This document shows, in pieces, positions 2,466 to 39,174 of a stretch of DNA of 64,000 nt (position 1 is the stretch's first letter; each line of letters begins with the position of its first letter). The position numbers were made by a program, and so were the translations under genes. Source of the stretch: Phycisphaerae bacterium (GTDB taxonomy: Bacteria > Planctomycetota > Phycisphaerae > UBA1845); the NCBI GenBank assembly GCA_028289375.1, contig JANQQK010000023.1, positions 1 through 64,000 on the forward strand. Direction: 5' to 3'. The notes beneath the pieces were generated by a model, which was not told where the DNA came from, did no database searches, and was given only the letters and a program-made list of their open reading frames with translations.

Positions 2466-3515
<1,050 letters not shown>

Positions 3516-8981: not shown

Positions 8982-9050
8982 GATCTCACCACCAGATTCG
9001 ACCAATGGTAGTTACCCGGCGTTCCGGTGTCGATAAGTTCTCCGGTGGCC

Positions 9051-13617: not shown

Positions 13618-15816
13618 TCAGTCGTTGACACGCCCGAACAGCTTGAACGTCAGCACCAACGCCGGCAGAAGCACCAAATTCGCCGACAACGCGCACACCA
13701 TCGTAAAGGCCAACAATCCCCCGAAGTAGGCGGTCGGCAAGAACCGCGACAACGTCAGAATCCAGAACCCGCCCGCAATCACGACCGTCGTGAACACACA
13801 CGCCCGCCCCACGCTTCCATGCGCATCGCGCAGCGCCGTCTCGTAACGTCCCGTTTCCCGCAGCCGCCGTCGAAACCGCCATAGATAATGCAACGCGTCA
13901 TCCACAGCGATCCCGGTCGTCACCGACAGCATCATCGCCGTCGTCATGTTCACCGCGATGCCCGTCCACGCCATCGCCCCCAAGCAGAACGCCATCGGCA
14001 ACACCGTCGGCACCATCGCCGTCAGCCCCACGCGCACCGACCGCAACATCACGATCAGCACAAGCAGCACCGCCGGCACCGTCACGCCCAACGATCGAAA
14101 CTGATCCCGCCACAGCTCGCTCACCAGCGTGGCGTAGAACACATACAATCCCGTCACATTCGTCTCGTACGCATCCCCCATGTCGGCGGCCACCATCGCC
14201 TCCACATCGCGACCAAGCTGCAGCTTTTCCTGCACCGAAATCCCCTCCGCCACACGGAAGTTCAACCGCATCCCCGTCTCATCCGCATTCAGAAAGTTGC
14301 GAATCGCCCCGTCGCCGAACATCCTTCGCGCACCGGCCAATCGCGCCTTCACCCCGAAGTCGGTCGACGGCGTATCCCCTTCCCCAAGTGTCAGCACGTC
14401 CGCCAAGCCCAGCGATTTCCGCACCGGCTCAAAAGACTCCACGACCTTCAAACCCGCCGCCCGCGATCGCCCCACCGACTCCGCCGACACCACCGACCCA
14501 CCGACTCGCTTGCGAATCACCACTTCCATCGACCCTGTCGGCGAGAGATGCGACTCGATGAACTCGTAACTGCGACGCACCTCGCTCTCCGGTCGAAAGT
14601 TCTTGACAAAATCACTTTCAAACCGAAGCCAAGGCAACGCAGCCGCAAACACACCCACCGCCACCACAAAACCGATCGCCGCCCGCCCCCGATGTCGCCC
14701 CACGGCCGAGCCCAGTTGACGCAGTTTGTCGGGCAGGAACGACATGTCCCGCGACGTCGCCGCCGGCTGTCGCGCCCACGCCAACAGCGGCGCACACACC
14801 AGCGACAGGGCCAACGCAAACGTTAGCCCGATCACCATGATATAACCGAACAATCGCACAGGCGTGATTCCGGATACCGACACCGATCCGAATCCCACCA
14901 TCGTTGTGATCATCACAGCCGAGCACGGCGAGATCATCTCCCGCAACACCCGCCGTGCCCGTTCCCGCCAATCCAGAAACGGCGTGCGCGCAAACACCTC
15001 ATCATCCGCCGACCCGATATGCACACAGTTGGCCACAGACAGCACCGTCACCAGGATGAGCACCATCTGCGTCACGAGCGTCGTCGGCCAATCCAACGCA
15101 GACGCCATCCCCAACGCACACGCCGTCGCCGCAAGCGATACCCCCAGACAATAGACCATCGCCGCCAGCCGCCGAAACACGATCCCCAACGTGATCAGAA
15201 TCAGCACGAACGCGGCGATCGAAAAGTAGACCAGATCGCGATCCACGAAGTCGTACATGTCGATCAGCGTCACATACGGACCAGCCAGAAAGACCGTCGC
15301 TTCCGGGTAACGATCCCGCGCGTCAGCCAGAATCCCCTTCAGACGCCCAACCGTTTCCTTCCGTACCGCTCCCGTCGCCCCCTCACCCGACATCTGCATC
15401 ACGACGGCGACCGTCTTGCCATCACGCCCCACCAGCGTGTCCACGAACAGCGGATGCTCCCACAACCAATCCCCCAGCAGATACCGCAACTGCTCCGGCA
15501 CATCCGCGATCGACCCCGTCCGCGCAACAGCCGGCAACGCGCTCACCTGCTCGGTGATCCACGTCACCATCGCCAGCGTTTCGTCCGACGTTGCGTCCGC
15601 CGTCTCCATCGCGAACACCGCGAATTCGTTGCTCGAAAACTCCTCCATCACCGCCCGAAAAGCGACGTACGCCTCACTCTCCGACGCCACGAACGCCTCC
15701 AGCGTGTAGTCCCGCCGCAACCCGCGCGTCAGCAGCACGCCAGCCGCCACCGCCGTCACAACCGCCGCTGCCATCACCAAACGAAAACAATGTCGCTCAA
15801 TCCAACCCGACAACAA
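13618..15816 (-). CDS. MMPL/RND-superfamily exporter
   Basis: A 732-residue polytopic inner-membrane protein of the MMPL branch of the RND superfamily. The architecture is one N-terminal TM, a periplasmic domain, a five-TM cluster, a second periplasmic domain and a final five-TM cluster. Conserved elements in the two repeats are visible as SVANCVHIGSADDEVF in the first and TTGIAVDDALHYLWRFRR in the second, the latter with the proton-relay-type Asp-Asp. Proteins of this branch export lipids, hopanoids or hydrophobic compounds. Nothing here fixes the substrate. The start is TTG, with AAAGGGA a few nt upstream. It is convergent with the pheT-hydrolase unit, with only 6 nt between them. Confidence 0.85.
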   Translation of the reverse strand: MLSGWIERHCFRLVMAAAVVTAVAAGVLLTRGLRRDYTLEAFVASESEAYVAFRAVMEEFSSNEFAVFAMETADATSDETLAMVTWITEQVSALPAVARTGSIADVPEQLRYLLGDWLWEHPLFVDTLVGRDGKTVAVVMQMSGEGATGAVRKETVGRLKGILADARDRYPEATVFLAGPYVTLIDMYDFVDRDLVYFSIAAFVLILITLGIVFRRLAAMVYCLGVSLAATACALGMASALDWPTTLVTQMVLILVTVLSVANCVHIGSADDEVFARTPFLDWRERARRVLREMISPCSAVMITTMVGFGSVSVSGITPVRLFGYIMVIGLTFALALSLVCAPLLAWARQPAATSRDMSFLPDKLRQLGSAVGRHRGRAAIGFVVAVGVFAAALPWLRFESDFVKNFRPESEVRRSYEFIESHLSPTGSMEVVIRKRVGGSVVSAESVGRSRAAGLKVVESFEPVRKSLGLADVLTLGEGDTPSTDFGVKARLAGARRMFGDGAIRNFLNADETGMRLNFRVAEGISVQEKLQLGRDVEAMVAADMGDAYETNVTGLYVFYATLVSELWRDQFRSLGVTVPAVLLVLIVMLRSVRVGLTAMVPTVLPMAFCLGAMAWTGIAVNMTTAMMLSVTTGIAVDDALHYLWRFRRRLRETGRYETALRDAHGSVGRACVFTTVVIAGGFWILTLSRFLPTAYFGGLLAFTMVCALSANLVLLPALVLTFKLFGRVND

Positions 15817-15857
15817 GTATCCCTTTCATGGACAACCGACTTGTCGCCCCACTGTAG

Positions 15858-15878
15858 CGTCACCCCTTGTGGGTGACG
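15858..15878. repeat. Intergenic hairpin of the CACCC-CTYGT-GGGTG family
   Basis: A perfect 8-bp stem, CGTCACCC / GGGTGACG, with loop CTTGT in the divergent gap between the exporter and the crotonase gene. The near-identical core recurs at 31685-31701. Confidence 0.7.
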
Positions 15879-15913
15879 AGAACCACCAGCAACTTCCGAC
15901 GCGTCACCCGCGG

Positions 15914-24539: not shown

Positions 24540-24929
24540 ATGTCAAACACACCCAATCGCCCCAACCCCGCCCAGTGGCTCATCGCGATCAGTCTCGCCG
24601 CCATCGCACTGACGCTGCTCATCAGAACCGACAACCCCATCCTCCCCGAAGCCGACGCACAGGTAACCCGTTCCGGCGGCGCACGCGGCATCTTTGCCTT
24701 CAGCACCCAGTTCTGCGAAAACTCGAATGGAATCTGCATGGTCGATGTCGACACCATGACCCTTTGGTGCTACGAATACGTCTGCGGCACCAAGAAGCTC
24801 CGCCTTCTCGGGAACCGGTCTTGGATGTACGACCGCTACCTCGAGAATTTCAACATCGACGGGCCGACCCCACAGGAGGTCCAACGCCTTGTCGATCAGG
24901 AGCGGGAAGCCAAGTTGCGCAACCGCTAA
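24540..24929 (+). CDS. Small membrane-anchored or secreted protein of unknown function
   Basis: A 129-residue protein with no family I can name. After a short polar start, one hydrophobic segment (residues ~13-27, WLIAISLAAIALTLL) acts as a signal anchor. A secreted part of about 95 residues follows, with four Cys spaced FCENSNGICM and LWCYEYVCGTKK, enough for two disulfides. A charged C-terminal helix (PQEVQRLVDQEREAKL) ends it. The protein ends 112 nt before the HTH membrane protein and may be functionally tied to it, but the candidate promoter between them suggests separate transcription. Confidence 0.65.
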   Translation: MSNTPNRPNPAQWLIAISLAAIALTLLIRTDNPILPEADAQVTRSGGARGIFAFSTQFCENSNGICMVDVDTMTLWCYEYVCGTKKLRLLGNRSWMYDRYLENFNIDGPTPQEVQRLVDQEREAKLRNR

Positions 24930-24943
24930 CGCCCGAATTCCGC

Positions 24944-24972
24944 GTGCAATCGCGGTTTCCCACGCGTACAAT
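24944..24972 (+). promoter_or_regulatory. Promoter candidate for the HTH membrane protein
   Basis: GTGCAA, a 17-nt spacer and TACAAT (five of six for the -10), about 70 nt before the ATG at 25042. Confidence 0.35.
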
Positions 24973-25041
24973 GAATACAGGGGTAGCCCTAAACGCCCCG
25001 CCGCAAAGAACTTGCAATCAAAGCGTAAGGGAAGTGCAAGA

Positions 25042-26256
25042 ATGGCCAAGATGTTCTACTCGCTCGAAGAAGCCCTCGAAAAGCTAGGCTGCGACGAGTC
25101 CACCCTCAAAGCCGCGGTCCGTGACGGCAAGCTCCGTGAATTCCGTGACGCCGGCAAGGTCAACTACAAGTCCGACGAGATCGACAAGCTTGCCGCAGAT
25201 TCCGGCGGCGGTGCGGGCACACCGCCTCCGCCACCACCCGCTGATGACGCCGCCTCCGACACAGGCCCCCTCAAGCTCGGCGATGAATTGGAACTTTCCG
25301 CGAGCCTTGGCCCCATCGGTCTTGCCGATACTGGCGCCGATACAGGCGCTGACAACCCCTTCCCCGATCTGACATCCGCAGGCAGCGGCGCCGGCGCTGA
25401 ATCAGGCGGGAGCATCGGCCTGGGCGACAGTTTGGGCGACAGTCTGGGCGAGATTGGTCTTGCCGACACCGGCGTCAATCTTGGCGGTTCCGGTTCTGCA
25501 CCGGGTCCTCCCGGCCTTGCCGAAACCGACATCGCCGCGGAAACAACGTTCAACCTTGCCGATACCGGCGACATGGGCGATCAGGTCAGCATCGAGGAAC
25601 CCGACAACGCCTCCTCCGGCAACAAGAAGGACGACACCGTCGTAAGTTCCGTCGGCGTCAGCGTTTTCGACGAAGAAGAAGTCTCGGACGACGACCCGAT
25701 GGCCAAGACGGTCCTGACCGGCACGGCTGGTGGGACTGGTCTTGAAGGCGTCGGCAGCGGCTCGGGGCTGCTCGACCTCACGCGCGAAAGTGATGACACC
25801 TCGCTCGGCGCGGAGTTGCTCGACGAAATTTACCCCGGCGGTGATGAAGGCGCCACCGTCGAAATGGGCGAAGCCACCCGCGCCGGTCTCGAATCCGCCA
25901 TCCCCGACGAAACCCCTGCCGGCGGCGAACCCGTGACCGAGGATGCATTCCAGCCGGCAGACCCTGGCCCTGCGTCCGTGGCAGCGACCGCGGCCGCCCC
26001 GTCGCGCACGGTCGTGACACAGACGATCGAATACGCGCCCGATGCCTTCGCCAACGGCGCGACGGGCATGCTCGCCGTCGCCCTGCTCATTATGGTTTTC
26101 ACCGGCTTGCCCATCGCGGCTGCGCTTGGCAATACGTGGCCCTCGATTCTTGATTTTGTTTATGGTAAGCTCTGGATGTTTGGTGCGGGCGCGTTGGTTC
26201 TGTCCGGCGCCGCCTTGGGACTTGGCATCTTCCTCGGAAAACGCTCCGGGGGCTGA
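25042..26256 (+). CDS. MerR/excisionase-type HTH protein with disordered linker and C-terminal membrane segments
   Basis: A 404-residue protein. Residues 1-52 match the small winged-helix DNA-binding fold of MerR/excisionase proteins: MFYSLEEALEKLGCDESTLK, then VRDGKLREFRDAGKVNYK. A long acidic, Gly/Ser/Thr-rich and probably disordered linker follows (~55-310), with imperfect repeats of 'GLADTGxxxG' and 'GDSLG'. Two hydrophobic segments near the C-terminus (~338-360 and ~370-395) should place it in the inner membrane. The layout resembles a membrane-tethered DNA-binding protein; whether the HTH truly binds DNA is unknown. AAGGGAAG precedes the ATG. An OmpA-like lipoprotein gene follows after 142 nt. 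Confidence 0.75.
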   Translation: MAKMFYSLEEALEKLGCDESTLKAAVRDGKLREFRDAGKVNYKSDEIDKLAADSGGGAGTPPPPPPADDAASDTGPLKLGDELELSASLGPIGLADTGADTGADNPFPDLTSAGSGAGAESGGSIGLGDSLGDSLGEIGLADTGVNLGGSGSAPGPPGLAETDIAAETTFNLADTGDMGDQVSIEEPDNASSGNKKDDTVVSSVGVSVFDEEEVSDDDPMAKTVLTGTAGGTGLEGVGSGSGLLDLTRESDDTSLGAELLDEIYPGGDEGATVEMGEATRAGLESAIPDETPAGGEPVTEDAFQPADPGPASVAATAAAPSRTVVTQTIEYAPDAFANGATGMLAVALLIMVFTGLPIAAALGNTWPSILDFVYGKLWMFGAGALVLSGAALGLGIFLGKRSGG

Positions 26257-26322
26257 TCCCCATTCCGGTGCGTTCATCGCTCAAGCAGTCGTCGAGTCGC
26301 CGCCCGTCCCCGCCACGAATCC

Positions 26323-26350
26323 GCCTTGGCATTTGGCGTCACGCCAAGGC
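26323..26350 (+). promoter_or_regulatory. Hairpin in the leader of the OmpA-like gene
   Basis: GCCTTGGC / GCCAAGGC, a perfect 8-bp stem with a 12-nt loop, 49 nt before the GTG start. A shorter alternative hairpin, TGGCG-TCA-CGCCA, overlaps the 3' arm, so the two are mutually exclusive. No T-run follows. Confidence 0.45.
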
Positions 26351-26398
26351 ACGATAGCTTTGGATTTACTCGTCCATCTCGACATTAAGGAGGACACC

Positions 26399-27265
26399 GT
26401 GCGTTTGGCTCCGTCGTTTCTGACCATCGTTGCGTCTGCCATGATCTTCACCACCACCGGATGCGTCAGCCTCCAGGTGCATGAACATGTCAAAATGGAC
26501 AACCGCAAACTCAAAGCCGAAAAAGAGCAACTCCAGCAGGAACTTTTTGACGCCCGCGCCGTCGCCGGCTCGCTGCGTGATCGTTCCGACTCGCTCGAGC
26601 AGCAGCTCGGCACCAAGGATCAGATTGTTGCCAACTTGAAGCGTGAGAATGACGGTCTCGAACAGAAGTTCAATCGCTGCCAGGAAATCGCGAAAGGCAT
26701 CGCCGAAATGCCCATCCCAGCGGTCACCCTCTCCGCACAACTGCCCGAGGAACTGGACAGCGCCTTCCAGACGTTCGCCGCCCAACACCCTAACCTCGTG
26801 GTCTACGACCGCGAGCATGGCAGTATCAAATGGACATCAGACCTGCTCTTCGCGTTGGGCAGCGACGTGGTCAAGAAGACAGCCGCCAATTCCATGATCG
26901 AATTCACCGAGATCATGCGTTCCCCCGCGGCCGCCAACTTTGATGTCTTCGTCGTCGGCCACACCGACAACGTTCCAATTCGCCGCGAAGCCACGCGTAA
27001 GCTCCACCCGACCAATTGGCACCTGTCGACCCACCGTTCGATCGCCGTCGCCAAGCTGCTGCAGAAGAATGGTCTCAACGCCTCGCGTGTCGGCGTGGTC
27101 GGCTTTGGTGAGCATCGCCCACTCGTCACCAACGACACCAAGGAGCACCAGGCCCGCAACCGCCGCGTCGAAATGTACATCATGCCCACCGGCGCGTTCG
27201 CCGTTGGCGCCAAGCCGGGCATCCAGGCGATGGCGATTACCGGACAGGAAAAGTCCGACAACTAA
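26399..27265 (+). CDS. OmpA/MotB-domain lipoprotein with coiled coil
   Basis: A 288-residue envelope protein that probably bridges outer membrane and peptidoglycan. The GTG at 26399 has a near-perfect AAGGAGG 5 nt before it. The signal peptide ends in the lipobox TTTGC. Residues ~35-110 form a heptad-rich coiled coil (LKAEKEQLQQELFDAR ... LKRENDGLEQKFNRC). The OmpA_C domain (~150-265) shows the peptidoglycan-binding core: FVVGHTDNVPIRREA, the LSTHRSIAVAKLL helix, and GFGEHRPLVTNDT followed by RNRRVEMYI. The combination of coiled coil and OmpA domain is seen in planctomycete and MotB-like proteins. Confidence 0.88.
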   Translation: MRLAPSFLTIVASAMIFTTTGCVSLQVHEHVKMDNRKLKAEKEQLQQELFDARAVAGSLRDRSDSLEQQLGTKDQIVANLKRENDGLEQKFNRCQEIAKGIAEMPIPAVTLSAQLPEELDSAFQTFAAQHPNLVVYDREHGSIKWTSDLLFALGSDVVKKTAANSMIEFTEIMRSPAAANFDVFVVGHTDNVPIRREATRKLHPTNWHLSTHRSIAVAKLLQKNGLNASRVGVVGFGEHRPLVTNDTKEHQARNRRVEMYIMPTGAFAVGAKPGIQAMAITGQEKSDN

Positions 27266-27328
27266 GCGGCAGTCTGTCTCTTTTCCGTCCGTCCGTTAAG
27301 TGGACGTGACCAAGCTCAAGCCCACACT

Positions 27329-27365
27329 GAATCCGCCTCGCGATATCTCGTCGCACGGCGGATTC
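27329..27365. promoter_or_regulatory. Inverted repeat just upstream of the resB -10 box
   Basis: GAATCCGCC and GGCGGATTC form a perfect 9-bp inverted repeat separated by 19 nt, ending 5 nt before a consensus TATAAT. It could be an operator over the -35 region or the end hairpin of the OmpA-like gene. Confidence 0.45.
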
Positions 27366-27369
27366 CTTC

Positions 27370-27375
27370 TATAAT
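27370..27375 (+). promoter_or_regulatory. Consensus -10 box for resB-ccsA
   Basis: A perfect TATAAT about 95 nt before the resB ATG. No -35 hexamer is visible at 16-18 nt, so an activator or repressor acting at the adjacent inverted repeat is plausible. Confidence 0.45.
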
Positions 27376-27468
27376 CCGATGTCATCAGACGACGCGGTCA
27401 AAAGATGGGCACGACGACGACCTCGTCCGATAAAGACGGAAGCGAAATCGATCAACGACAGGAACGCC

Positions 27469-29793
27469 ATGAGCAACGCCCCATCGGCCAAGAAGTCCAA
27501 GGGTCTCATCGACTACCTTTTCTACAGCTGGGCGAACAACGTCTGGTTCGGCATCGCTGTCCTGATCGCCATCTTCGTCTACAGCTCCGTCGGGAGTGCC
27601 ATCCCTTCCCTTCGCCAGCATCCCTTCTTCGACCTGACCGAAATGGGCTGGTTTCACTGGTGGCCTTTCGATCTGATGATCGCCCTGCTGGTGATCAACA
27701 TGACCACCGTGACCCTGAAACAAATCCCGTTCAAGCTCATCAACGCCGGCGTCTGGACCATACACACCGGCATCATCATTCTCTGCTTTGGCAGCGTCTA
27801 CTACTTCGGCACCAAGCTCGAGGGCGACGTGCCGATCTTTCGCCGCAGTGTCGAGATCAGCGTCCCTGGAAAGACCGAACCGGTCTCCCTTGTCGTTCGT
27901 CCCGGCAACATCGTCTCCACGGAAGGCGCCGACGGTGAATACACCTTCGCCGTCTCACAGACATTCCCCGAGTGGGTCATCGCGTCGGGCGACGACGCGG
28001 GCAAGAAGGCGTACATGGCGTGGATCGACGTCAAGCCCCCCGGACGCATCAACTACACCCGACAACTTCTGGACGGCTATCCCGAGTACACCGAGGACAT
28101 TCTCCCCGATCGAACGCGGGCCAAGAAGACGCTCGGACGCCAACTCGTCGACGACTCGGTTTCGATGAAACTCGCCTACGAGCCTCAGACCGAGTTCTTC
28201 CTGATGCATTCCGCGTCCATCTTCGTCCGCGAGACGGAGAGTGATCGGTGGGACGAACGCCCCGTCTATGACATGCCCCACTACAACGACCACATCGGCG
28301 ACCACGACGACGTCATCATCTCGCCGGAGCAACGCGAGCCGATTCCACTCCGACCCATCAACCTCGAAGCACCGCCGAAGGATGGCGGCACTGATGCACT
28401 CTCCGACTACGACGTCCGCGTCACCGCCTACCTTCGCTACGCCAGCCTGATCCCGAAGTGGTCCGACGGCGGCGACACGCTGAATCCGATCATCGGTATT
28501 TCGCTCACGGCCGGGACTGCCCGAAACACGTTTGAATTGATGGCCCTCGACGACCGGCGAAACACCACAGCCAACGGACTGGTCACGTTCAAGTGGGTCG
28601 AGTCGCGCGACGCCGTTGACCGACTCGCCGCATCACCTGTGGATTTGCTTACTTTCAAGGTTCCAGGTACCGACATCGTCCTCGAAGTGCCGATCACCGG
28701 CCCCAACGATGAGTACGTCCCCATTGCGGGTACCGAATTCGCGTACAAGATCAAATACGTCGTGCACGACCTCGCCATCCCCAGCGGGCCCAACACCGGC
28801 AATGCGATGTCGGTCGCCATCGTCGACATCCGCACGCCCGACGGCGAAATCTCACGCTTCGTCGCCAGCGAGCCAACAGCCACACGCGATGTCGTCGGGC
28901 AAGGCGAGATGGGCGACCCGTCACCCGCCATCGACGTCCAATTCATCCCTGGCAACACCGCACGCATTACCCTGATCGCCGGCCCCGAAGGCGTTGGCAA
29001 CTGGGTCCTCTTCAACGAAGGGAGCGTCATCGACAAGCATGAAATCACGGTTGGTGACGCCATGCCCGTCACGCCACAGATCAACCTGACCATCGACTAC
29101 CTGCACAGCCACGGCGTCGACGCGAGCAAGCCGATGATCGTCCCCAAGCACCAACGTCAGAGCAGTGCCAAGGAGTTTTTCTCCATGGTCCGTCTCGAAA
29201 TCAGCAAGGACGACTGGACGGAGTCTGTGTGGCTTCCGTTCAATCGCTATGCGCTGCCAAGCAACCAATATGTCGTGCCCCGTCGCATCATCTTCCGCCC
29301 AACCGATTTGAGGCTGCCGGATGGGAAGACCGTGCAGGTCTGCTACTCGCGCAACCGCCATCCCCTGCCCGCACCGATCGCCCTTGAGACCTTCGATCTC
29401 GCCACGCACCCGGGCGGATACACCGGCTCGACCATCACCGTGAGCGATTTCATCAGCAAGCTCCGCTTTGGAACCGACGACGGTTGGTCGGACGAAATGC
29501 AGATGAGCTCCAACAAGCCCGCAACCCATGGCGGCTTCTGGTATTTCCAGTCGCAATGGGATCCGCCCGGTGAAGGGTCTGCCGGGATGAACTACACCGG
29601 CGTCGGCGTCGGTAACCGCAACGGCGTCTACATCCAGCTCTTCGGAACCGCCGTTGCTGTCGCGGGCATGATCTTCGCGTTCTATTTCAAGCCGATCATC
29701 CGGCAAAAGGCCCAGCAGAAGGGCCGCCAGCGTAAGGAAGCAGTGACCGAGTCAAGCATCGCCCAGCAGGCCGAGCCTGTCGGCGTTGCGTAG
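27469..29793 (+). CDS. resB: ResB-like cytochrome c biogenesis protein
   Basis: A 774-residue inner-membrane protein of the ResB/CcsB family, part of the system II machine that delivers heme and attaches it to apocytochrome c outside the membrane. Three hydrophobic segments lie in the first ~115 residues (IDYLFYSWANNVWFGIAVLI, FDLMIALLVINMTTV, VWTIHTGIIILCFGSVYYFG). The large external domain (~120-730) is longer than in typical ResB proteins of about 450-550 residues. A final TM precedes the Lys/Gln-rich tail. The ATG at 27469 follows AGGAACGCC; an upstream ATG adds a basic, unlikely extension. The gene is 24 nt upstream of ccsA, its known partner. Confidence 0.85.
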   Translation: MSNAPSAKKSKGLIDYLFYSWANNVWFGIAVLIAIFVYSSVGSAIPSLRQHPFFDLTEMGWFHWWPFDLMIALLVINMTTVTLKQIPFKLINAGVWTIHTGIIILCFGSVYYFGTKLEGDVPIFRRSVEISVPGKTEPVSLVVRPGNIVSTEGADGEYTFAVSQTFPEWVIASGDDAGKKAYMAWIDVKPPGRINYTRQLLDGYPEYTEDILPDRTRAKKTLGRQLVDDSVSMKLAYEPQTEFFLMHSASIFVRETESDRWDERPVYDMPHYNDHIGDHDDVIISPEQREPIPLRPINLEAPPKDGGTDALSDYDVRVTAYLRYASLIPKWSDGGDTLNPIIGISLTAGTARNTFELMALDDRRNTTANGLVTFKWVESRDAVDRLAASPVDLLTFKVPGTDIVLEVPITGPNDEYVPIAGTEFAYKIKYVVHDLAIPSGPNTGNAMSVAIVDIRTPDGEISRFVASEPTATRDVVGQGEMGDPSPAIDVQFIPGNTARITLIAGPEGVGNWVLFNEGSVIDKHEITVGDAMPVTPQINLTIDYLHSHGVDASKPMIVPKHQRQSSAKEFFSMVRLEISKDDWTESVWLPFNRYALPSNQYVVPRRIIFRPTDLRLPDGKTVQVCYSRNRHPLPAPIALETFDLATHPGGYTGSTITVSDFISKLRFGTDDGWSDEMQMSSNKPATHGGFWYFQSQWDPPGEGSAGMNYTGVGVGNRNGVYIQLFGTAVAVAGMIFAFYFKPIIRQKAQQKGRQRKEAVTESSIAQQAEPVGVA

Positions 29794-29817
29794 GACACAG
29801 AATCAAGGCATTTGACG

Positions 29818-31647
29818 ATGACCGAATACCTTCCACAGATCCTCGCAGCCCTGTTCGGCACAATCGCGTTTGGGTTCCTTCTCGCCATGTTCCCGGCACG
29901 CGCACGCAAGATCACCGTCGATGTGCTCGTCGTCGGACTCATCGGCTACATCATCTACAGCAACACCGTCAACCGCGCCCCCGCCCCCGAGCCGACCCCC
30001 TTTGCCCAAGCCGTCGACATCGAAGCCCTCAACAACCTCGCCGTGCAGAACGATGGGCGCCTGAAGTCCTTCAGTTCGTTCTCGCGCAAGATGATGCGCT
30101 TCGTCAGCGGAAGACACTCGATCGCCGGTCAGCCACACGCATTTACGTACATGGACATGATGTTCCGCCCGAAGGCGTACGAGGATGCTGACGTCATCTA
30201 CGTCAAGCACAAGGACCTTCGCGGCATGATCACCGACACGCTCCTGGCCGAAAACGCCGCGGAACACAGCGTGCTCGAATCGTTTATGGAGTCGGGACTT
30301 ATCGCGCCATCGCTGCTAAAGCGACCATCCGTAACCGATCTTCTTGATCGGCTTGAACGCGACCTCATTACCACCAACAAGCAGGTCGGATTCGTCCGCT
30401 CCGCGCTGACCGTTTCCGATGCGCGGACGCTCGCGAACAACTTGCGCGTCGTTCCACCGCCGTCCGGCGACGACCATGCTGCGTGGTTCCTTATCGGTGA
30501 TGCACTCCCAGCCTCTGCCGCGCCCCATGACCACACGCACTCCGGCGTTCAACGATCGTCCGGCATCCCGGGGATGCCCGCCGACACCACAGCCAACATC
30601 AACACGAACTGGAACAAACTTGGTTCCGCCTGGCAGGCGCAGGACGCAGACGCTGCCAACGCCGCACTGGCATCGCTGGCCGGCGCGCTCCGCTCGGTCG
30701 CACCGACTCTGTATCCGCCCGACGACAAGCTTGAACTCGAAAGCTGGTATTTCCGCAACTACAGCATGACGTGGATCTGGGTCGTCTACCTGGCCGCGAT
30801 GATCCCACTGCTTATCGGGTTCGTGTACAAATGGCGGGGCGCGAACATGATCGGCATCGCGTTCTTCCTGGTCGCATTCGCCCTGCACACGACATCGCTC
30901 GGCATTCGATGGCACCTTTCAGGACGCATCCCCAACTCGAACATGTTCGAAGCCATTGCCGCCGCAACCTGGTTTGGCGGCGTCATCGCCTTCGTTCTCG
31001 AGTTCATCGTCCGCAAGACCACGATGCGCAATCTCTTCTTCCTTGGATCAGCCGCCGCATCCATGACGGCCTCCATGTGCAGCAGTTTCATGCCCGTCAC
31101 GCTCGCCAGCGACATCGACAACATCATGCCGATCCTGCTGCACAACGTCTGGCTGTACATTCACACGAACATGATCATTGCCAGTTATTGCACCATCGCG
31201 ATCGCGGCCGTCACCGCCCTGCTCTACCTGCGCGACCGTATCGGTGGTTCCAGACCCGACCACGCCGTCCTCGGCGGCGCGGGTTCGCTTGTCATGAGCA
31301 ATCACCCCAGCGCCAAATTCGTTCGCGGCGACAACGCCTCCACCGCCGCCGTGCTCGACGGAGCGACCATGGTCATGATGGAATTCTCCTTCGTCACCCT
31401 CTGGGCCGGCCTCGTCATGGGCGCCATCTGGGCGGACCAATCCTGGGGCCGTCCGTGGGGTTGGGACCCGAAGGAAGTGTTCGCCCTCAACACGTTCATC
31501 ATCTTCCTGCTGCTCGTGCACGTGCGTTTCAAGGTCAAGGACAAGGGTCTCTGGACCGCCATCCTTGCCGTCATCGGTTGCGGGGTCATGCTCTTCAACT
31601 GGATTGTCATCAACTTTGTCATCACCGGGCTGCACAGCTACGCGTAG
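29818..31647 (+). CDS. ccsA: Cytochrome c biogenesis protein CcsA/ResC
   Basis: A 609-residue polytopic protein that exports and presents heme for cytochrome c assembly with ResB. The diagnostic tryptophan-rich WWD motif is present as QSWGRPWGWDPKEVFAL near residue 540, and conserved His residues lie in flanking helices (HNVWLYIHTNMI). The C-terminal half carries the usual eight or so TM helices. The N-terminal ~300 residues add two TMs and a soluble region with a His-rich patch (PHDHTHSGVQ) that is not part of the core family. The ATG at 29818 is preferred over the TTG two codons upstream. Confidence 0.92.
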   Translation: MTEYLPQILAALFGTIAFGFLLAMFPARARKITVDVLVVGLIGYIIYSNTVNRAPAPEPTPFAQAVDIEALNNLAVQNDGRLKSFSSFSRKMMRFVSGRHSIAGQPHAFTYMDMMFRPKAYEDADVIYVKHKDLRGMITDTLLAENAAEHSVLESFMESGLIAPSLLKRPSVTDLLDRLERDLITTNKQVGFVRSALTVSDARTLANNLRVVPPPSGDDHAAWFLIGDALPASAAPHDHTHSGVQRSSGIPGMPADTTANINTNWNKLGSAWQAQDADAANAALASLAGALRSVAPTLYPPDDKLELESWYFRNYSMTWIWVVYLAAMIPLLIGFVYKWRGANMIGIAFFLVAFALHTTSLGIRWHLSGRIPNSNMFEAIAAATWFGGVIAFVLEFIVRKTTMRNLFFLGSAAASMTASMCSSFMPVTLASDIDNIMPILLHNVWLYIHTNMIIASYCTIAIAAVTALLYLRDRIGGSRPDHAVLGGAGSLVMSNHPSAKFVRGDNASTAAVLDGATMVMMEFSFVTLWAGLVMGAIWADQSWGRPWGWDPKEVFALNTFIIFLLLVHVRFKVKDKGLWTAILAVIGCGVMLFNWIVINFVITGLHSYA

Positions 31648-31684
31648 ACATTGCGAGAATGGTGGTGTCTGACGGTCTGCAGCG

Positions 31685-31701
31685 CCACCCCTCGTGGGTG
31701 G
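31685..31701. repeat. Intergenic hairpin of the CACCC-CTYGT-GGGTG family
   Basis: CCACCC-CTCGT-GGGTGG, 38 nt after the ccsA stop. Same core as 15858-15878. Probably a dispersed intergenic hairpin; terminator action is possible but no T-run follows. Confidence 0.6.
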
Positions 31702-31887
31702 TGGGCAGGCAGGTGAACGTCTCGGACGCAAGGGGCAGCTTCCACCCCGATAACCACGCCATGCAACTTCCCACAAATATCCCCGCCAAATTCCACAATC
31801 CCCTTACAGCCAAACAACGCTTGACGCACAAGGACCACGACCGATAACCTCCAGCCATTCGCAGCGAACCAACCTGGAACCAACCCT

Positions 31888-33648
31888 ATGCCCAAACCAC
31901 AATCCAAACGACGCACGACCGACACGACCGCCGACACGAAATCTCTCGCCGAGGCTGTCGCACCCGAAGGCGTCAAGGACACGACCGAATCCATCGTCGT
32001 CGCCTTCATCCTTGCTTTCGTCTTTCGGGCGTTTGTGATCGAGGCATTCGTCATCCCCACCGGCTCCATGGCCGCCACCCTCTACGGACGACACGGCACC
32101 CTGGTCTGCAGCGACTGTGGATGGGAGAACGCCTACGGCCTCACCGAGCCCACCCAACGTCAGGCCCAATACACGCCGCAACACACCGTCATCTGCCAGA
32201 ACTGCAACCACCCCAACACGAATCTCACCTACCACGACGGCATCGTTCAAAGCGGCGGCAAGTACCTCAAGACCAGACCCAACTCCGAGGCAGGCGACCG
32301 CATTCTCGTGTTCAAATGGCCGTTCGATCTCGCCTTCAGCTCACTCGGCCCACAGCGATGGGACGTTACAGTCTTCAAGAACCCGGCCAACGGCGATGAG
32401 AATTTCATCAAGCGACTCGTCGGCCTCCCCGGTGAGGTCCTCGAAGTCATCGACGGCGACGTCTACACGGTTCCGTTCACCGACCTCTCCGAAGCATCGC
32501 GAAACGCCCTCGAACGCCATCGCCACATCAAACACGAATGGGTCCGATCAGGCTTCTCAAGTTATCAGCATCAGGAGTTGCTCAAGAAAGGCCCGCCCGA
32601 ATCGGTGCTCGACGAACTCGCCGACAAACTCACCGTCCGCCGGAAAACCGAAAAGGCATCAGAGTCTCTCTGGATCCCCGTCTACGACCACGACTTCCCG
32701 CCCATGTCCACCGATCGAGGCCAACCCCACTGGAAAGCGGTCGCCGCGATCGTAGACGGACCCAACTTCATCACCGACGACCGCAAGCTCACCTTCAACG
32801 GCGCCAATGGCGGCCGCTCGACCGCGGTTTTTTCCGGCAAGTCCATCTACGATCAGAACGCCTACAACATCAACGTTCCCGAACGCCTGCAGGTGCCGGT
32901 ATCCGACCTTCGTCTCGACGCCGTTGTCTGCCCCAGTGCCGGAGATGGCAAGCTTCAGATTTCCCTTTTCAAAGGCCAATTCGAGTTCGCCGCGCTGCTC
33001 AAGCCCAACGGCGATATTGCACTGATTCAATACAAGCCCGGCTACCCCAATCCCGTCACACTCGCGTCGGGCGTGATCCATCCGTGGTCCGCGAATCGCC
33101 CGTTTGAGGTCTCGCTCCGAAACGCCGATTACCGCGTTTCGCTTCATATTGATGGCCAAGAACTCCTCGCCACCACCAGAGAGCAATACGCGCCCAACAT
33201 TCGTCGCCTCCGCGCGACGCGCAATATCATGCCGACTCCCGCCCCGCAGATCACCGCCGAAAACCTTGACGTCACCCTCCGGCACGTCGCCCTCTATCGC
33301 GATGAATACTACATCAGCGACAACATCGTCGGCGAACGCAACGCACCACCGTCGAAGACCATCAGTGGCTGGGGCACGCAATCCAACCCGATCCTCCTCC
33401 GCGACCACGAATACTACATGCTTGGCGACAACAGCATCGCCAGCAAAGACTCACGCCTTTGGGACCGCGTTGGAGGCCACCTCGTCGATCGCGGCGATGC
33501 GTTTCAACTCGGAACCGTCCCCGAAGACCAACTCATCGGAAAGGCGTTCTTCGTCTACTGGCCCAGCGGGCTGCGCCCCCAGTGGATCCCCGTGCTTGAA
33601 AACATGGGCGTCATCCCCAATGTTGGCCGCATGCGCTGGATCAAATAA
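31888..33648 (+). CDS. lepB: Signal peptidase I, enlarged form with Cys4 knuckle
   Basis: A 586-residue type I leader peptidase, about twice the usual length. One TM (~35-52) precedes the catalytic Ser60 in FVIPTGSMAATL. The general-base Lys175 is in ENFIKRLVGLPGE, and box E is the YYMLGDNSIASKDSR segment near residue 510. Between Ser60 and Lys175 lie two CxxC pairs (Cys74/77 and 103/106), which should form a zinc ribbon. Between ~190 and ~495 an insertion of about 300 residues has the look of a lectin-like beta-sandwich (LDAVVCPSAGDGKLQISL ... VTLRHVALYRDEYYIS). Similar large peptidases occur in planctomycetes. It would release Sec and Tat substrates such as the secreted proteins here. Confidence 0.9.
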   Translation: MPKPQSKRRTTDTTADTKSLAEAVAPEGVKDTTESIVVAFILAFVFRAFVIEAFVIPTGSMAATLYGRHGTLVCSDCGWENAYGLTEPTQRQAQYTPQHTVICQNCNHPNTNLTYHDGIVQSGGKYLKTRPNSEAGDRILVFKWPFDLAFSSLGPQRWDVTVFKNPANGDENFIKRLVGLPGEVLEVIDGDVYTVPFTDLSEASRNALERHRHIKHEWVRSGFSSYQHQELLKKGPPESVLDELADKLTVRRKTEKASESLWIPVYDHDFPPMSTDRGQPHWKAVAAIVDGPNFITDDRKLTFNGANGGRSTAVFSGKSIYDQNAYNINVPERLQVPVSDLRLDAVVCPSAGDGKLQISLFKGQFEFAALLKPNGDIALIQYKPGYPNPVTLASGVIHPWSANRPFEVSLRNADYRVSLHIDGQELLATTREQYAPNIRRLRATRNIMPTPAPQITAENLDVTLRHVALYRDEYYISDNIVGERNAPPSKTISGWGTQSNPILLRDHEYYMLGDNSIASKDSRLWDRVGGHLVDRGDAFQLGTVPEDQLIGKAFFVYWPSGLRPQWIPVLENMGVIPNVGRMRWIK

Positions 33649-33914
33649 CGGCCGCCCTGTTGCTCACCATCGATGGCGCGCATACCGCTTCCGCGCCTCG
33701 TTGCATTTCACCAATCAATCGGCTTAGCATATCCTCTTACCAACGCGGCTGCCCGTCTTTGAGACATTGTTCTTCTTGCCGGAAAGGAACGGCCAGAACG
33801 TAGGCCGCTGTCTTGGCGGAGCGCCGTCGGTACACCGGTTCGTGCAGGTTTGTTCTTTACAACGGTCCAAGCTCTTCTACGGATGTCGACTGATAAGATG
33901 TTAGTGACGTTTCA
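33649..33914. other. Gap holding the GC-skew switch (origin-like polarity)
   Basis: 266 nt between lepB and kptA. Counting lines of 60 nt, the plus strand has 10 G / 23 C at 33661-33720, 12 / 19 at 33721-33780, 23 / 16 at 33781-33840 and 25 / 10 at 33961-34020, so the switch from C-rich to G-rich falls near 33.77 kb. No sequence close to TTATCCACA was found. It also holds a possible extended -10 for kptA. Confidence 0.5.
33891..33899 (+). promoter_or_regulatory. Possible extended -10 promoter of kptA
   Basis: TGATAAGAT, 15 nt before the ATG. If used, the leader to the ATG is only ~9 nt, which would favour the GTG codons at 33936 or 33942 with GGGGA before them. Confidence 0.3.
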
Positions 33915-34490
33915 ATGATTTCGCGTGGGGAACAAGTGCGGGTGAGCAAACGGCTGAGCTATGTGCTTCGACATCGGCCTGATTCGGTTGGTCTCGAGTT
34001 GGGGGAAGGTGGCTGGGTGACGGTGGATGCGTTGCTTCACGCTTTGGCCTCAGGCGGGGTTGTGTCGCGGGATGTGCTGGAAACCGTTGTGCGGGAGAAC
34101 GACAAGCAACGGTTTGAGATGAGCGCGGATGGGTTGCAGATTCGGGCGCGACAGGGACATTCGGTGGCGGTCGATCTGGGTTATGAACCGGCGACGCCTC
34201 CGGAATCTCTGCTGCATGGGACGGCAGAGCGCTTTCTGGACTCGATTTTTGCGAAAGGTCTGGTCAAGGGGAAGCGACACCATGTGCACATGGGGACGGA
34301 CCGCGCGTTGATGGTGTCGGTGGGTGGTCGGCATGGCAAGCCCGTCGTTCTCGAAGTAGCGGCAGGTCGGATGCATGCGGATGGTCATGCATTCTTCGTG
34401 ACGGGGAACGGCGTGTGGCTGACTGAGCACGTACCGGCGAAGTATCTCACATTGGATGCATCATCCCGGAGTCAGGCTGCGGCGCGTTGA
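33915..34490 (+). CDS. kptA: RNA 2'-phosphotransferase Tpt1/KptA
   Basis: A 191-residue KptA. In fungi and animals Tpt1 moves the 2'-phosphate left by tRNA splicing to NAD+, making ADP-ribose 1'',2''-cyclic phosphate. Bacterial homologues have the activity, but their natural substrate is unknown. The conserved first block is SKRLSYVLRHRPDSVGLELG; the GGWVTVDALL helix, the HGT of 'LLHGTAERFLDSI' and 'HHVHMGTDRALMVSVGGRHG' follow. The ATG at 33915 has no Shine-Dalgarno; GTG codons at 33936 and 33942 follow GGGGA and would still keep all conserved residues. It is the first gene right of the skew switch and uses G-rich codons, in sharp contrast to lepB. Confidence 0.92.
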   Translation: MISRGEQVRVSKRLSYVLRHRPDSVGLELGEGGWVTVDALLHALASGGVVSRDVLETVVRENDKQRFEMSADGLQIRARQGHSVAVDLGYEPATPPESLLHGTAERFLDSIFAKGLVKGKRHHVHMGTDRALMVSVGGRHGKPVVLEVAAGRMHADGHAFFVTGNGVWLTEHVPAKYLTLDASSRSQAAAR

Positions 34491-34531
34491 CGTCGGATGC
34501 GCCACGGCAGGTGCGAAGCGTCTGCGCTACT

Positions 34532-35455
34532 TCACCAAGTTCGTTGCCGTCGGGCGTTGATGGTCAATGCAGCAGTCAAAAGGATGGCTGCGAATAGAAT
34601 CGATGCTGTGGTTGAGCTTGTCGGGACGGCGTCGGGGCAGGTGGTGTTGGGGTGGAATGTGCCGCCAAGGTCTTCCTCGCATTCGATGCGCGTGAGACCG
34701 TCGCTGCATGCATGTCCAGTCGTGCAGCTACCAGCGCGAATCCTGATGACGAGCGGATCGATGAGTTCCGGAGAGCGCTGTCCCACGGTGGTGGCGATGT
34801 AAGTCTTGAAGTTCATGCACCCTGCGTCCTGCATCGTGTCGCAATTGGCGTCGCCGGGGCAGCAGGAAGGGCGAAGTGTGTAAGTCCCTTCCGCATCGAA
34901 GGGGATCGTGAATGAAAATTGCCCCAGATAACGAGGGTTATTGGGGACAACGGGATCTCCAAGGACGATCACGCTGATGATTGGAGTGAAAATCCTGCAA
35001 ACGCCGGCGTTTTGGCAATGATGGGCAGATCGACATACGTTCGGGTCGTCCGTGCAATCGATGATCTCGCATTGTCCGTGGTCCATAGCCAAGAGTCCCG
35101 GTGTCTCGATAATCAGGCTGTAGGGGTTGCGTTCGTCGAACGAAGCTGATGCTGCGATGTAGTGAAGTGGTGGCCGATCGGGGAGCGAGCTTGCAACATC
35201 ACATTCAATTCCAAGCGACGTCAGAGTGACCTCCCATCCTGGGTGAGTGAGATAGGCCTGGGCGATGATGGTCGTATCGCCGTCGGCTTCGATGACAAAA
35301 GGCTGACCCGGGGTGGTGGTGTTGGGGTCGACGCCTGGCGGGAGGAAAAATAGGCGGCCTTGCGACTGGTCGCCGGCGAGGGCAGGCGCGTTCATCGCGG
35401 CAAGATGAATACACGACCAAACGGACAGCTTGAGAAGGCAGGAAATCGATTTCAT
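34532..35455 (-). CDS. Secreted Cys-rich protein with C-terminal membrane anchor
   Basis: A 307-residue exported protein related to the middle domain (296-497) of the 17906 protein. A signal peptide (MKSISCLLKLSVWSCIHLAA) is cut near ALAGD. The shared domain (~33-240) begins GRLFFLPPGVDPN and includes LAMDHGQCEI, CQNAGVCRI, GQFSFTIPFDAEGTYTLRP and the C-terminal 'PLVIRIRAG'. A GACC-type Cys unit (GSCTTGHACSDG ... TTC, ~242-273) follows. A 17-residue hydrophobic segment and RRQR end the protein, a tripartite end that looks like a sorting or anchoring signal but lacks PEP. The ATG at 35455 gives a normal signal peptide. No operon partner is evident. Confidence 0.75.
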   Translation of the reverse strand: MKSISCLLKLSVWSCIHLAAMNAPALAGDQSQGRLFFLPPGVDPNTTTPGQPFVIEADGDTTIIAQAYLTHPGWEVTLTSLGIECDVASSLPDRPPLHYIAASASFDERNPYSLIIETPGLLAMDHGQCEIIDCTDDPNVCRSAHHCQNAGVCRIFTPIISVIVLGDPVVPNNPRYLGQFSFTIPFDAEGTYTLRPSCCPGDANCDTMQDAGCMNFKTYIATTVGQRSPELIDPLVIRIRAGSCTTGHACSDGLTRIECEEDLGGTFHPNTTCPDAVPTSSTTASILFAAILLTAALTINARRQRTW

Positions 35456-35634: not shown

Positions 35635-36879
35635 GTGATTGGTGATTATCTGCGGTTGCCGCGGGCGGTGCACATTCTTTCGCTGGGGATGTTCATCAAT
35701 CGGGCGGGCGCGTTTCTGATCATGTTTCTGACGCTCTATCTCCAGGATGAGCTGGAGCTGGGGACGACGTTTGCGACGCGGGCGATGGGCGTGTTCGGAG
35801 CCGGGTCGGTGACGGGGACGCTCGTGGGCGGGCAACTGGCTGATCGGATCGGGCGTAAGCCTGTGCTGTTGCTCGCATTGTGCGGGGCTGCATCAGTCTT
35901 GTTTGTATTTCCGTATCTGCGGACGCGTTGGTCGATTCTGACTGGCGTGTTCTTGTTGGCTGCAGTGGCGGATATGTATCGGCCAGCGGTGCATGCGATG
36001 ATTGCGGACATGACGGAGGGCGAGGAGCGGTCGCTGGCATTTGGATTGAACTTTCTGGCGATCAACCTGGGATTTGCGGTGGCGGGTCCATTGGGCGGCG
36101 AGTTGGCGGACATCTCGTTTCCGATGTTGTTCGGGGTGGACGCAGCCACGGCGTTGGTGTTCGCGGGGATCATCGCATGGAAGATACCGGAGACGTTGCC
36201 GGCCAAGCTTGCCGATCACGCTGACGGAGATGATTCGAAGGTGCCGCTGGGCGTCGCGGTTGAACGCATTGTTCGCGATCGCGTGTTTATGTTGCTTTGC
36301 CTGGCCACGTTGTTCCTGTCTCTCTGTTACATGCAGATGAACTCAACGCTGCCGTTGTATATCAAAGGCTTGGGCTACGAGAAGAACATCGTCGGTCGAA
36401 TCATCGGGGTGAACGGCTTACTGATCGTGCTGTTTCAGATTCCGGTGACACAGGTGGTGACGCGGTACCATCGGGGCTGGATGATCACGTTGGCGGCGGC
36501 GCTGGTTGGGTTTGGGTTTGCGCTGACGTCGTTGGCGACGGTGCACGTGGCGATCGTTGGGACGATCTGCGTGTGGACGCTCGGAGAGATGATGCACGCG
36601 CCGCTGATTTCGGCCACGGTCGGCGATTTGGCACCGGCGAGCATGCGGGCGCGATACATGGGGGCGTTTACGATGAGTTGGTCGGTGGCGAACATGATCG
36701 GGGCCCCGCTGGGCGGCGAGGTTTTGGAGAATCATGGGGCGGAGCGGTTGTGGGTCCTTGCGGGTTTGGTGGGGCTGTTGGCGTCGATTGGGTTCTGGAC
36801 GATTCGGCGGCAGATGGCCGTCAAGAAGGCGGACCGGCGAGCGGCTTCCGGATCGCCGGGAGACCAAGACCTGATCTGA
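35635..36879 (+). CDS. Major facilitator superfamily transporter (MdtH-like)
   Basis: A 414-residue MFS protein with the usual 12 TM helices. The signature loop between TM2 and TM3 is GGQLADRIGRKPVLL, and a matching half-motif in the second repeat is weaker. The layout resembles MdtH/YceL-type multidrug exporters, but the substrate cannot be told. The central loop between TM6 and TM7 (ADHADGDDSKVPLG) is acidic. The start is GTG at 35635; no good ribosome-binding site is visible, so the true start is uncertain. The 3' end overlaps the small minus-strand gene by 59 nt. The plus strand is G-rich throughout. Confidence 0.88.
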   Translation: MIGDYLRLPRAVHILSLGMFINRAGAFLIMFLTLYLQDELELGTTFATRAMGVFGAGSVTGTLVGGQLADRIGRKPVLLLALCGAASVLFVFPYLRTRWSILTGVFLLAAVADMYRPAVHAMIADMTEGEERSLAFGLNFLAINLGFAVAGPLGGELADISFPMLFGVDAATALVFAGIIAWKIPETLPAKLADHADGDDSKVPLGVAVERIVRDRVFMLLCLATLFLSLCYMQMNSTLPLYIKGLGYEKNIVGRIIGVNGLLIVLFQIPVTQVVTRYHRGWMITLAAALVGFGFALTSLATVHVAIVGTICVWTLGEMMHAPLISATVGDLAPASMRARYMGAFTMSWSVANMIGAPLGGEVLENHGAERLWVLAGLVGLLASIGFWTIRRQMAVKKADRRAASGSPGDQDLI

Positions 36880-37111: not shown

Positions 37112-37192
37112 ACAGAGGTTATCGACGCTCCGACCGCCCGGTGTTGAGAACGCATTGGCGCGAATCTGCACCATCGCCGACCGGGAACGCTC

Positions 37193-37230
37193 GATTCGAC
37201 CCCCCACCGCTGAAGCGATGCGCCACCCGA
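37193..37230. repeat. 38-nt intergenic repeat, copy 1
   Basis: GATTCGACCCCCCACCGCTG then AAGCGATGCGCCACCCGAC. Matches 39081-39120 except for a few positions. CCCACCGC-TGAA-GCGATG forms an imperfect hairpin. Confidence 0.75.
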
Positions 37231-37272
37231 CTGATGCGTCAGGACCGCTATGGGCCTCCTTATCTGCCTTGA

Positions 37273-37912: not shown

Positions 37913-39028
37913 TCAGAAAAAGCTGCGGACGGCGTCGATGACGTGGGTGACCTGGTCGGAGGTGAGTTCGGGATAGCAGGGAAGCGTGACACAGTTGGCG
38001 CAGACGGATTCGGTGACGGGCATCGGCATGGCGCGGTGGGCGATGGTCTGGACGGCTGGCTGAACGTGCACCGGGTTCTTGTAATGAATACCGGTGCCGA
38101 TGTTGTGTTTGCCCAGGTGCGCGACGAGGTCGTCGCGGTTCGGTGTCTGGATGACATAGCAGTGGTAGTTCGGGATGTTGTGTTCGGCGACTATGGGGGT
38201 CTTGATGTCGAGGTTGGCGAAGGCGGCGTCGTATTGGGCGGCGATGTCGCGACGCTTGCGGTTGTTGTCGTCGAGGTGCGGGAGTTTGGCGCGGAGAATC
38301 GCGGCCTGCAGTTCGTCGGGGCGAAAGTTGTAACCGATGATGTCGTGGTCGAACTTGCCGGAGTGGCCATGATGTCGGAGCAGTTGCATGCGGTTGAAGA
38401 CGTCGTCCGTGGCGGCGGTGCAGAAGCCGGTTTCGCCAAAGGCACCAAGATTCTTGGTGAAGTAAAAGCTGAAGGCGGCAGCGTCCGCGAGTGAGCCTGC
38501 AGTCTGTCCCTTGTAGAAGGATCCGTGGGCCTGGGCGGCGTCCTCGATGACGTGCAGGTTGTGCTTCTGGGCGATGGTCTTGATGGCGTCCATATCGGCG
38601 CATTGGCCATAGATGTGCACAGGGACGATGACCTTGGTCTTCTCGGAGATGGCGTCTTCGATGCGGTTGGGGTCCATGCAGTATGTATCGGGGTCAATGT
38701 CGATCATGACGGGTGTGCCGCCTGCATGATGCACGGACTCGACGGTGGCGAAGAAGGTGTGGGATGGGACGATGGCTTCGAAGCCGCAGGGAAAATCGAA
38801 GGCCTTGAGGGCGAGGGTGAGTGCGTCGGTCCCGTTGGAGCAGGCGAGACCTGCGTGAGCCTTGCAGTAGTTGGTGAATTCCTGTTCGAAGTTTCGGATG
38901 TTCTCGCCGAGGAAGAGGTGCATCTTGTCGAAGATGTTCTCGAACTCGGTGAGGATTTGCTCTTTGACGGGGAGGTAGGAGGCGCGGAGGTCGACGAGCG
39001 GGACGTTGAGGGTGGTTTGGGTGGTCAT
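37913..39028 (-). CDS. DegT/DnrJ/EryC1/StrS-family sugar aminotransferase
   Basis: A 371-residue PLP-dependent aminotransferase of the family that aminates keto-sugar nucleotides for polysaccharide or secondary-metabolite sugars. PLP Lys192 is in SFYFTKNLGAFGE. The family motifs NGTDALTLALKAF, PSHTFFATVESV, VHIYGQCADMDAI and IEDAAQAHGS are all present. The C-terminal 'GTGIHYKNPVHVQPAV' and 'LPCYPELTSDQV' are typical. Probable role: a step of surface-glycan synthesis, perhaps with the glycosyltransferases at 50-64 kb, but no partner dehydratase is adjacent. The plus strand here is G-rich although the gene is on the minus strand, in line with the general skew of the region. Confidence 0.92.
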   Translation of the reverse strand: MTTQTTLNVPLVDLRASYLPVKEQILTEFENIFDKMHLFLGENIRNFEQEFTNYCKAHAGLACSNGTDALTLALKAFDFPCGFEAIVPSHTFFATVESVHHAGGTPVMIDIDPDTYCMDPNRIEDAISEKTKVIVPVHIYGQCADMDAIKTIAQKHNLHVIEDAAQAHGSFYKGQTAGSLADAAAFSFYFTKNLGAFGETGFCTAATDDVFNRMQLLRHHGHSGKFDHDIIGYNFRPDELQAAILRAKLPHLDDNNRKRRDIAAQYDAAFANLDIKTPIVAEHNIPNYHCYVIQTPNRDDLVAHLGKHNIGTGIHYKNPVHVQPAVQTIAHRAMPMPVTESVCANCVTLPCYPELTSDQVTHVIDAVRSFF

Positions 39029-39080
39029 GGGTTATCCTTCGGAACGCGCATCTCTTCGTTCGGCGTCGTGAGTGGTCCGG

Positions 39081-39120
39081 GAATCGACTCCCCCACCGCT
39101 GAAGCGATGGGCCACCCGGA
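39081..39120. repeat. 38-nt intergenic repeat, copy 2
   Basis: GAATCGACTCCCCCACCGCT then GAAGCGATGGGCCACCCGGAC. CCCACCGC-TGAA-GCGATGGG forms a hairpin with one mismatch. Same orientation as 37193-37230. Confidence 0.75.
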
Positions 39121-39174
39121 CGAGTGGTCAATTGGAGTGTAGATCGCGCGGCCGGGGCGTCAAGGAGAATGGCG

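Follow-up and report, generated by a model that had tools for sequence, protein, structure and literature searches.

The DNA described here (the window) is the first 64,000 bases of C87, a 116,151-bp contig from a draft genome of a Phycisphaerae bacterium (G000; 94 contigs, 4.99 Mb, 99.3% complete). Near its middle, in a noncoding gap between lepB (signal peptidase I) and kptA (RNA 2'-phosphotransferase), the plus strand turns abruptly from C-rich to G-rich. Cumulative GC skew over the window has its minimum at 33,780, and all-base skew changes from -0.233 on the left to +0.207 on the right with 2 kb flanks (z=10.9) and from -0.148 to +0.243 with 10 kb flanks (z=21.9). Third codon positions, on which the protein imposes the weakest constraint, go from -0.50 in lepB (31888-33648) to +0.51 in kptA (33915-34490), both of which are encoded on the plus strand. 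No other upward step in the 1.38 Mb of the genome that we analysed (28% of the total) is as large: its size is 0.73 (2-kb flanks), against 0.57 for the runner-up. The strand-composition switch at 33.78 kb, placed by a first-pass annotation at about 33.77 kb, is thus confirmed as real. Gene calling relied on a simple codon-usage method, and key results were repeated on long genes, intergenic DNA and homology-aligned codons.

The sign of the skew is independent of gene strand, given that a minus-strand exporter gene left of the switch (13618-15774) is C-rich on the plus strand at third positions (-0.56) and a minus-strand gene to its right (37913-39028) is G-rich (+0.63). The annotation had drawn the same distinction, and it holds on the right; on the left the exporter agrees, but an aldolase gene also cited there (2466-3515) has a third-position skew of only -0.06. 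Skew on this side is weak below about 10 kb and near zero at 3-7 kb. Line counts quoted for the two sides need a small correction: positions 33961-34020 do hold 25 G and 10 C, but 33661-33720 hold 11 G and 23 C rather than 10 and 23. The G-rich sign, said to be kept for about 28 kb, is present past the switch but is lost at about 62 kb, and beyond the window the skew flips again at about 76, 87, 96 and 110 kb of the contig.

A C-to-G change in the plus direction, located in a noncoding gap, has the right polarity for a bidirectional origin, and an unusual oriC had been suggested here, together with the observation that dnaA, dnaN, gyrB and DnaA boxes were missing. Their absence from the site is borne out. 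None of the three genes adjoins the junction, and the DnaA box TTATCCACA (at most 1 mismatch) has no match there; the window as a whole holds only two isolated ones, at 9028 and 13898. The dnaA-dnaN-gyrB cluster is found intact on a different contig (C12:26754-32471), where the skew also has C-to-G polarity, but changes gradually and has a G-rich side of only about 30 kb. Above all, 1.35 Mb of this genome contain 21 upward and 19 downward sign changes of skew, so there is no unique genome-wide minimum. For these reasons the switch is not the chromosomal oriC, and the origin idea survives only in an altered and unproven form, as initiation zones dispersed across the genome. A second dnaA gene is found at C42:4303-5733. 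The possession of two such genes was ruled out as a special feature, given that at least two DnaA-domain matches are the rule in the order and occur in most relatives. The DnaA encoded beside dnaN (C12:26754-28067) has no DnaA N-terminal domain detectable in Pfam.

Gene order points to another origin of the gap. We compared it with a sister species of the same genus (G001; about 158 kb sampled) and with smaller samples from same-family genomes (G004, G034 and G008) and from an order-mate assembled as a single contig that starts near dnaA (G046). A scan with lepB for close relatives yielded one that carries a name, a Phycisphaerales MAG of Planctomycetota. In G004, lepB is followed directly by lptB, and a counterpart stands at the same place in G034; the gene cluster that ends in lepB keeps its order up to lepB in both. 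The sister species has the order lepB, sulP, a carbonic anhydrase gene (CA), lptB and the next gene, and its lptB is 71% identical to that of G004 (we named sulP, CA and lptB by reading the sequence and by homology rather than by a profile search). In G000, lepB abuts kptA, and sulP, lptB and the next genes lie together at C11:7966-13713. These arrangements place a break in 33649-33914 and indicate that this gap is a REARRANGEMENT junction, at which an ancestral lepB-(sulP-CA)-lptB adjacency was broken after the split from the G001 lineage. Thus, of the interpretations offered in the first-pass annotation, the unusual oriC loses its footing and the inversion or join gains support, with lptB, and sulP and CA before it, separated from lepB in the lineage of G000. 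The breakpoint contains neither an inverted repeat nor a mobile element, which are common but not obligatory at rearrangement junctions, and the surrounding 1.6 kb (33000-34600) has no second copy elsewhere in G000 at E<=0.001.

The segments on either side show the same signs of skew in the sister species. At fourfold-degenerate sites the skew of lepB is -0.64 in G000 and -0.66 in G001, that of the MFS transporter gene right of the junction is +0.67 and +0.31, and the genes at 37.9-44.8 kb (in a block at 37-48 kb) have positive skew in both species. Because each flanking segment is same-signed in G001, joining them produces the jump. The logic that segments carry their skew when moved is supported by a block of about 9 kb (G000:C46, about 41.5-50.5 kb), which is inverted in G001:C25. 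Its genes keep their skew, and the join is a discontinuity in G001 and a smooth ramp in G000. The breakpoint of this inversion coincides with a zero crossing of the skew.

We consider it probable that the 33.78 kb switch is a rearrangement junction of opposite-skew segments, formed within pre-existing skew domains that are independent of gene strand. In this scenario, the G000 lineage would have undergone a cut just downstream of lepB and a join there to the kptA-MFS segment. On the plus strand, the left side would have stayed C-rich and the right one G-rich, creating a jump within about 250 bp, and its abruptness may reflect a rearrangement younger than the time that skew needs to re-equilibrate. 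With less confidence, we suspect that the domains record fork direction from many dispersed initiation zones and not from one oriC. The event may have been an inversion, a translocation or an insertion. One observation weighs against a rearrangement: the sister species has a sharp up-step at 84.0 kb (C61, about 84.04 kb), 3.8 kb downstream of lepB and between lptB and the next gene; as this adjacency is conserved in G000:C11, sharp steps arise without rearrangement too.

The best of the other explanations is that 33.78 kb is itself one of many initiation sites, the abruptness reflecting a well-localised and efficient origin. Its polarity is right, the step is in a noncoding gap, as up-steps tend to be genome-wide (see below), and the up-step downstream of lepB in the sister species would be a parallel. 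However, the junction is a lineage-specific breakpoint, its intergenic sequence has no similarity to the G001 step, and we found in it neither a DnaA box nor a shared k-mer, nor a clearly unusual AT-rich stretch (the lowest 80-bp GC nearby is 0.41, at 33,841, compared with 0.45, sd 0.04, in random 3-kb windows). We regard an initiation site at this position as unlikely, if the most serious competitor to a rearrangement.

The domain landscape in which the switch is set is a genuine and unusual feature of the genus, and it is this landscape, rather than the switch, that is the real finding. In G000, third-position skew reaches about ±0.7 in domains of either sign, with a sign change about every 34 kb and a correlation length of about 10 kb. 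Opposite-strand neighbouring genes share plus-strand third-position skew (r=0.68, n=296; 0.66 for high-scoring genes of at least 900 bp), and intergenic skew follows that of the flanking genes (r=0.70, n=420). The contigs of 100-227 kb that we analysed carry alternating domains and no single-origin skew profile. The sister species is similar (opposite-strand r=0.51, sd 0.35). Domains are absent from G004, G034 and G008 (opposite-strand r about -0.16 to 0, sd 0.13-0.18), the order-mate G046 has an ordinary two-replichore skew of modest size, and 20 other genera of the family, sampled at about 20 kb or less each, mostly have low skew. Single 20-kb samples of two genomes (G009 and G013) are domain-like and strand-independent, and the feature may extend beyond one genus. 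In G014, and perhaps G015, skew follows gene strand, with third positions enriched in C on the coding strand (sense about -0.35), an effect that is unusually strong for the family. These small samples are leads only.

Comparison of the two species indicates that the domains are actively maintained, because most synonymous sites have turned over (fourfold-site identity is 0.44, where 0.35 is expected from composition, and residual site memory is about 0.1-0.2) and yet fourfold skew is still correlated over 46 orthologues (r=0.69). In the colinear block at 37.3-70.9 kb, skew declines smoothly from about +0.7 to about -0.4 in G000 and about -0.7 in G001. If a chromosome has one origin, forks cross any unrearranged 34-kb block away from the origin and terminus in one direction only, so a sign change within such a block argues against a mere mosaic of inversions. 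We therefore think it improbable that the landscape reflects a single ordinary oriC whose two replichores have been broken up by recent inversions into a mosaic, with every switch a breakpoint. Such a mosaic would account for the short G000-G001 synteny blocks, the about equal numbers of up and down sign changes, and the fact that moved segments carry their skew. It does not account for a smooth sign change in a block that is colinear in two species with nearly randomised synonymous sites, or for another breakpoint (C6, about 56.35 kb) that has no step, and it predicts that up- and down-steps are equally frequent at gene gaps, where only up-steps are enriched.

Slightly less probable still is an assembly chimera, in which unrelated pieces of the same genome were misjoined at 33.7-33.9 kb. 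The genome is a draft of many contigs, this is the most abrupt step in the sample and it falls at a synteny breakpoint; moreover, skew inflections have revealed misassemblies in other genomes (PMC7111523). Those misassemblies are typically at long perfect repeats, whereas the 1.6 kb around the junction match nothing else, both sides share base composition and the skew style of the genus, and comparable breakpoints are common between G000 and G001. Transcription-driven skew along operon direction (through R-loops or coding-strand deamination) is very improbable: a minor part of the skew does go with the sense strand (third-position sense GC skew -0.077, TA skew +0.181), and skew follows gene strand in G004 and G034, but up-steps are equally common at convergent and divergent junctions, and the correlation between opposite-strand neighbours rejects transcription as the cause of the domains.

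Replication is the leading candidate for the cause of the domains, although unproven. G-rich regions of G000 tend to be T-rich (r=0.57), and the combination of G and T richness is the usual leading-strand signature. Up-steps are more noncoding than down-steps (0.194 vs 0.094 with 2-kb flanks, p=0.0008), and G001 shows the same tendency (p=0.02-0.04). Across settings p is mostly 0.001-0.02, and the preference is not significant at zero strand offset, except for co-oriented flanks. Repetitive extragenic palindrome (REP) elements belong to two families, and in 21 of 24 clusters their orientation is tied to skew. Insertion by Y1 transposases targets the lagging-strand template (PMC6006769), but a bias in target composition could mimic a link to replication. 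Compared with control gaps, REP2 elements are more often located where skew rises (p=0.0014); for REP1 elements the difference is not significant. The two families have about 45 copies in 1.38 Mb and their own Y1 transposase genes. One of these (Y1_Tnp, C7:155087-155383) has an inverted pair of REP2 copies on its two sides, at 154773 and 155465, and a second (C85:6122) lies beside REP1; hairpin repeats together with a transposase gene flanked by inverted REPs identify a REP/RAYT system. A 38-bp repeat considered as an origin was rejected because it is such a mobile element with its transposase.

We tentatively suggest that this genus of Planctomycetota replicates from roughly 75 (extrapolated) dispersed zones, about one per 65 kb, while retaining a normal dnaA-dnaN-gyrB cluster and having an order-mate whose skew is of the ordinary single-origin type. 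Fork direction would then alternate every few tens of kilobases, leaving strong local strand asymmetry. Several results speak against multiple initiation. The asymmetry of step sizes is not significant (skewness 0.07-0.29, sign-flip p 0.067-0.26), up-steps have no enrichment of DnaA boxes, no k-mer shared among 12 narrow up-transitions holds up convincingly under correction for multiple testing, and dnaA, dnaN and gyrB form an intact cluster. Widths of up- and down-transitions do not differ significantly (4.2 vs 4.9 kb, p=0.52), and tRNA genes, oriented 9 vs 6 relative to skew, are uninformative. Loss of RNase HI, one known route to origin-independent replication in Escherichia coli (in reports such as PMC12000880 and PMC7045392), is excluded as the cause here, since both genomes of the genus have the enzyme, as do relatives.

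Features of the window on either side of the skew switch, and REP elements within it
Feature	Position	Strand	Remarks
Left segment, a conserved cluster of genes with lepB (signal peptidase I) as the last	24540..33648	+	C-rich plus strand, third-position skew -0.30 to -0.50
Junction, intergenic gap with skew switch	33649..33914		Putative lineage-specific rearrangement breakpoint
kptA/Tpt1 RNA 2'-phosphotransferase	33915..34490	+	First gene on G-rich side, third-position skew +0.51
Hypothetical ORF	34532..35455	-	G-rich side, third-position skew +0.40; no Pfam match
MFS transporter	35635..36879	+	Orthologue in G001 on separate contig C60
Start of 37.3-70.9 kb block of C87	37273..64000		Colinear with G001:C107 (reversed)
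REP1 element	15843..15888	+	Usual orientation relative to local skew
REP1 element	31674..31724	+	Usual orientation relative to local skew
REP2 element (REP/RAYT-type)	37174..37243	+	Usual orientation relative to local skew
REP2 element	39061..39123	+	Syntenic G001 gap about 58 bp shorter, as expected of a mobile insert

The kptA/Tpt1 gene is nearly absent among relatives: only 4 of the 60 genomes gave matches, all of them weak and partial.

Bacteria are generally assumed to replicate their chromosome from a single origin; the known exceptions are a few cyanobacteria. If dispersed initiation is true of this genus, it would provide a second example, recent and independently evolved, with which to study how a bacterium can come to abandon single-origin replication. 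In such genomes, skew would no longer serve to locate origins or to check assemblies, and peak-to-trough estimates of growth would break down. The 33.78 kb switch is of less consequence; what it shows is that an abrupt skew jump at this place is most likely due to a join. It is the domain landscape that deserves replication profiling.

From the perspective of known systems, the switch resembles a canonical bidirectional oriC in its C-to-G change in the plus direction and in the keto (G+T) excess on the putative leading strand, but it is unaccompanied by dnaA, dnaN, gyrB or DnaA boxes and is one of about 20 similar transitions in 1.35 Mb. Mammalian replication N-domains are sawtooth skew profiles on a scale of around a megabase. 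The domains described here share with them a skew that is independent of gene strand, repeated up-transitions that favour gene gaps and smooth declines through genes; however, the abrupt-up, gradual-down shape is only a non-significant trend in G000, and a cycle takes about 65 kb. Skew inflections caused by rearrangement or misassembly (PMC7111523) are likewise abrupt local inversions of skew at a synteny breakpoint, but the junction has no flanking repeat and the background of G000 itself alternates. In the cyanobacteria Synechocystis 6803 and Nostoc 7120, skew is irregular, and multiple origins have been shown experimentally that are DnaA-independent though dnaA is present (PMC7198777). The genus studied here belongs to Planctomycetota and has a strong skew in alternating domains, but it shares with these multi-origin cyanobacteria the lack of a single V-shaped skew, and they are its nearest precedent.

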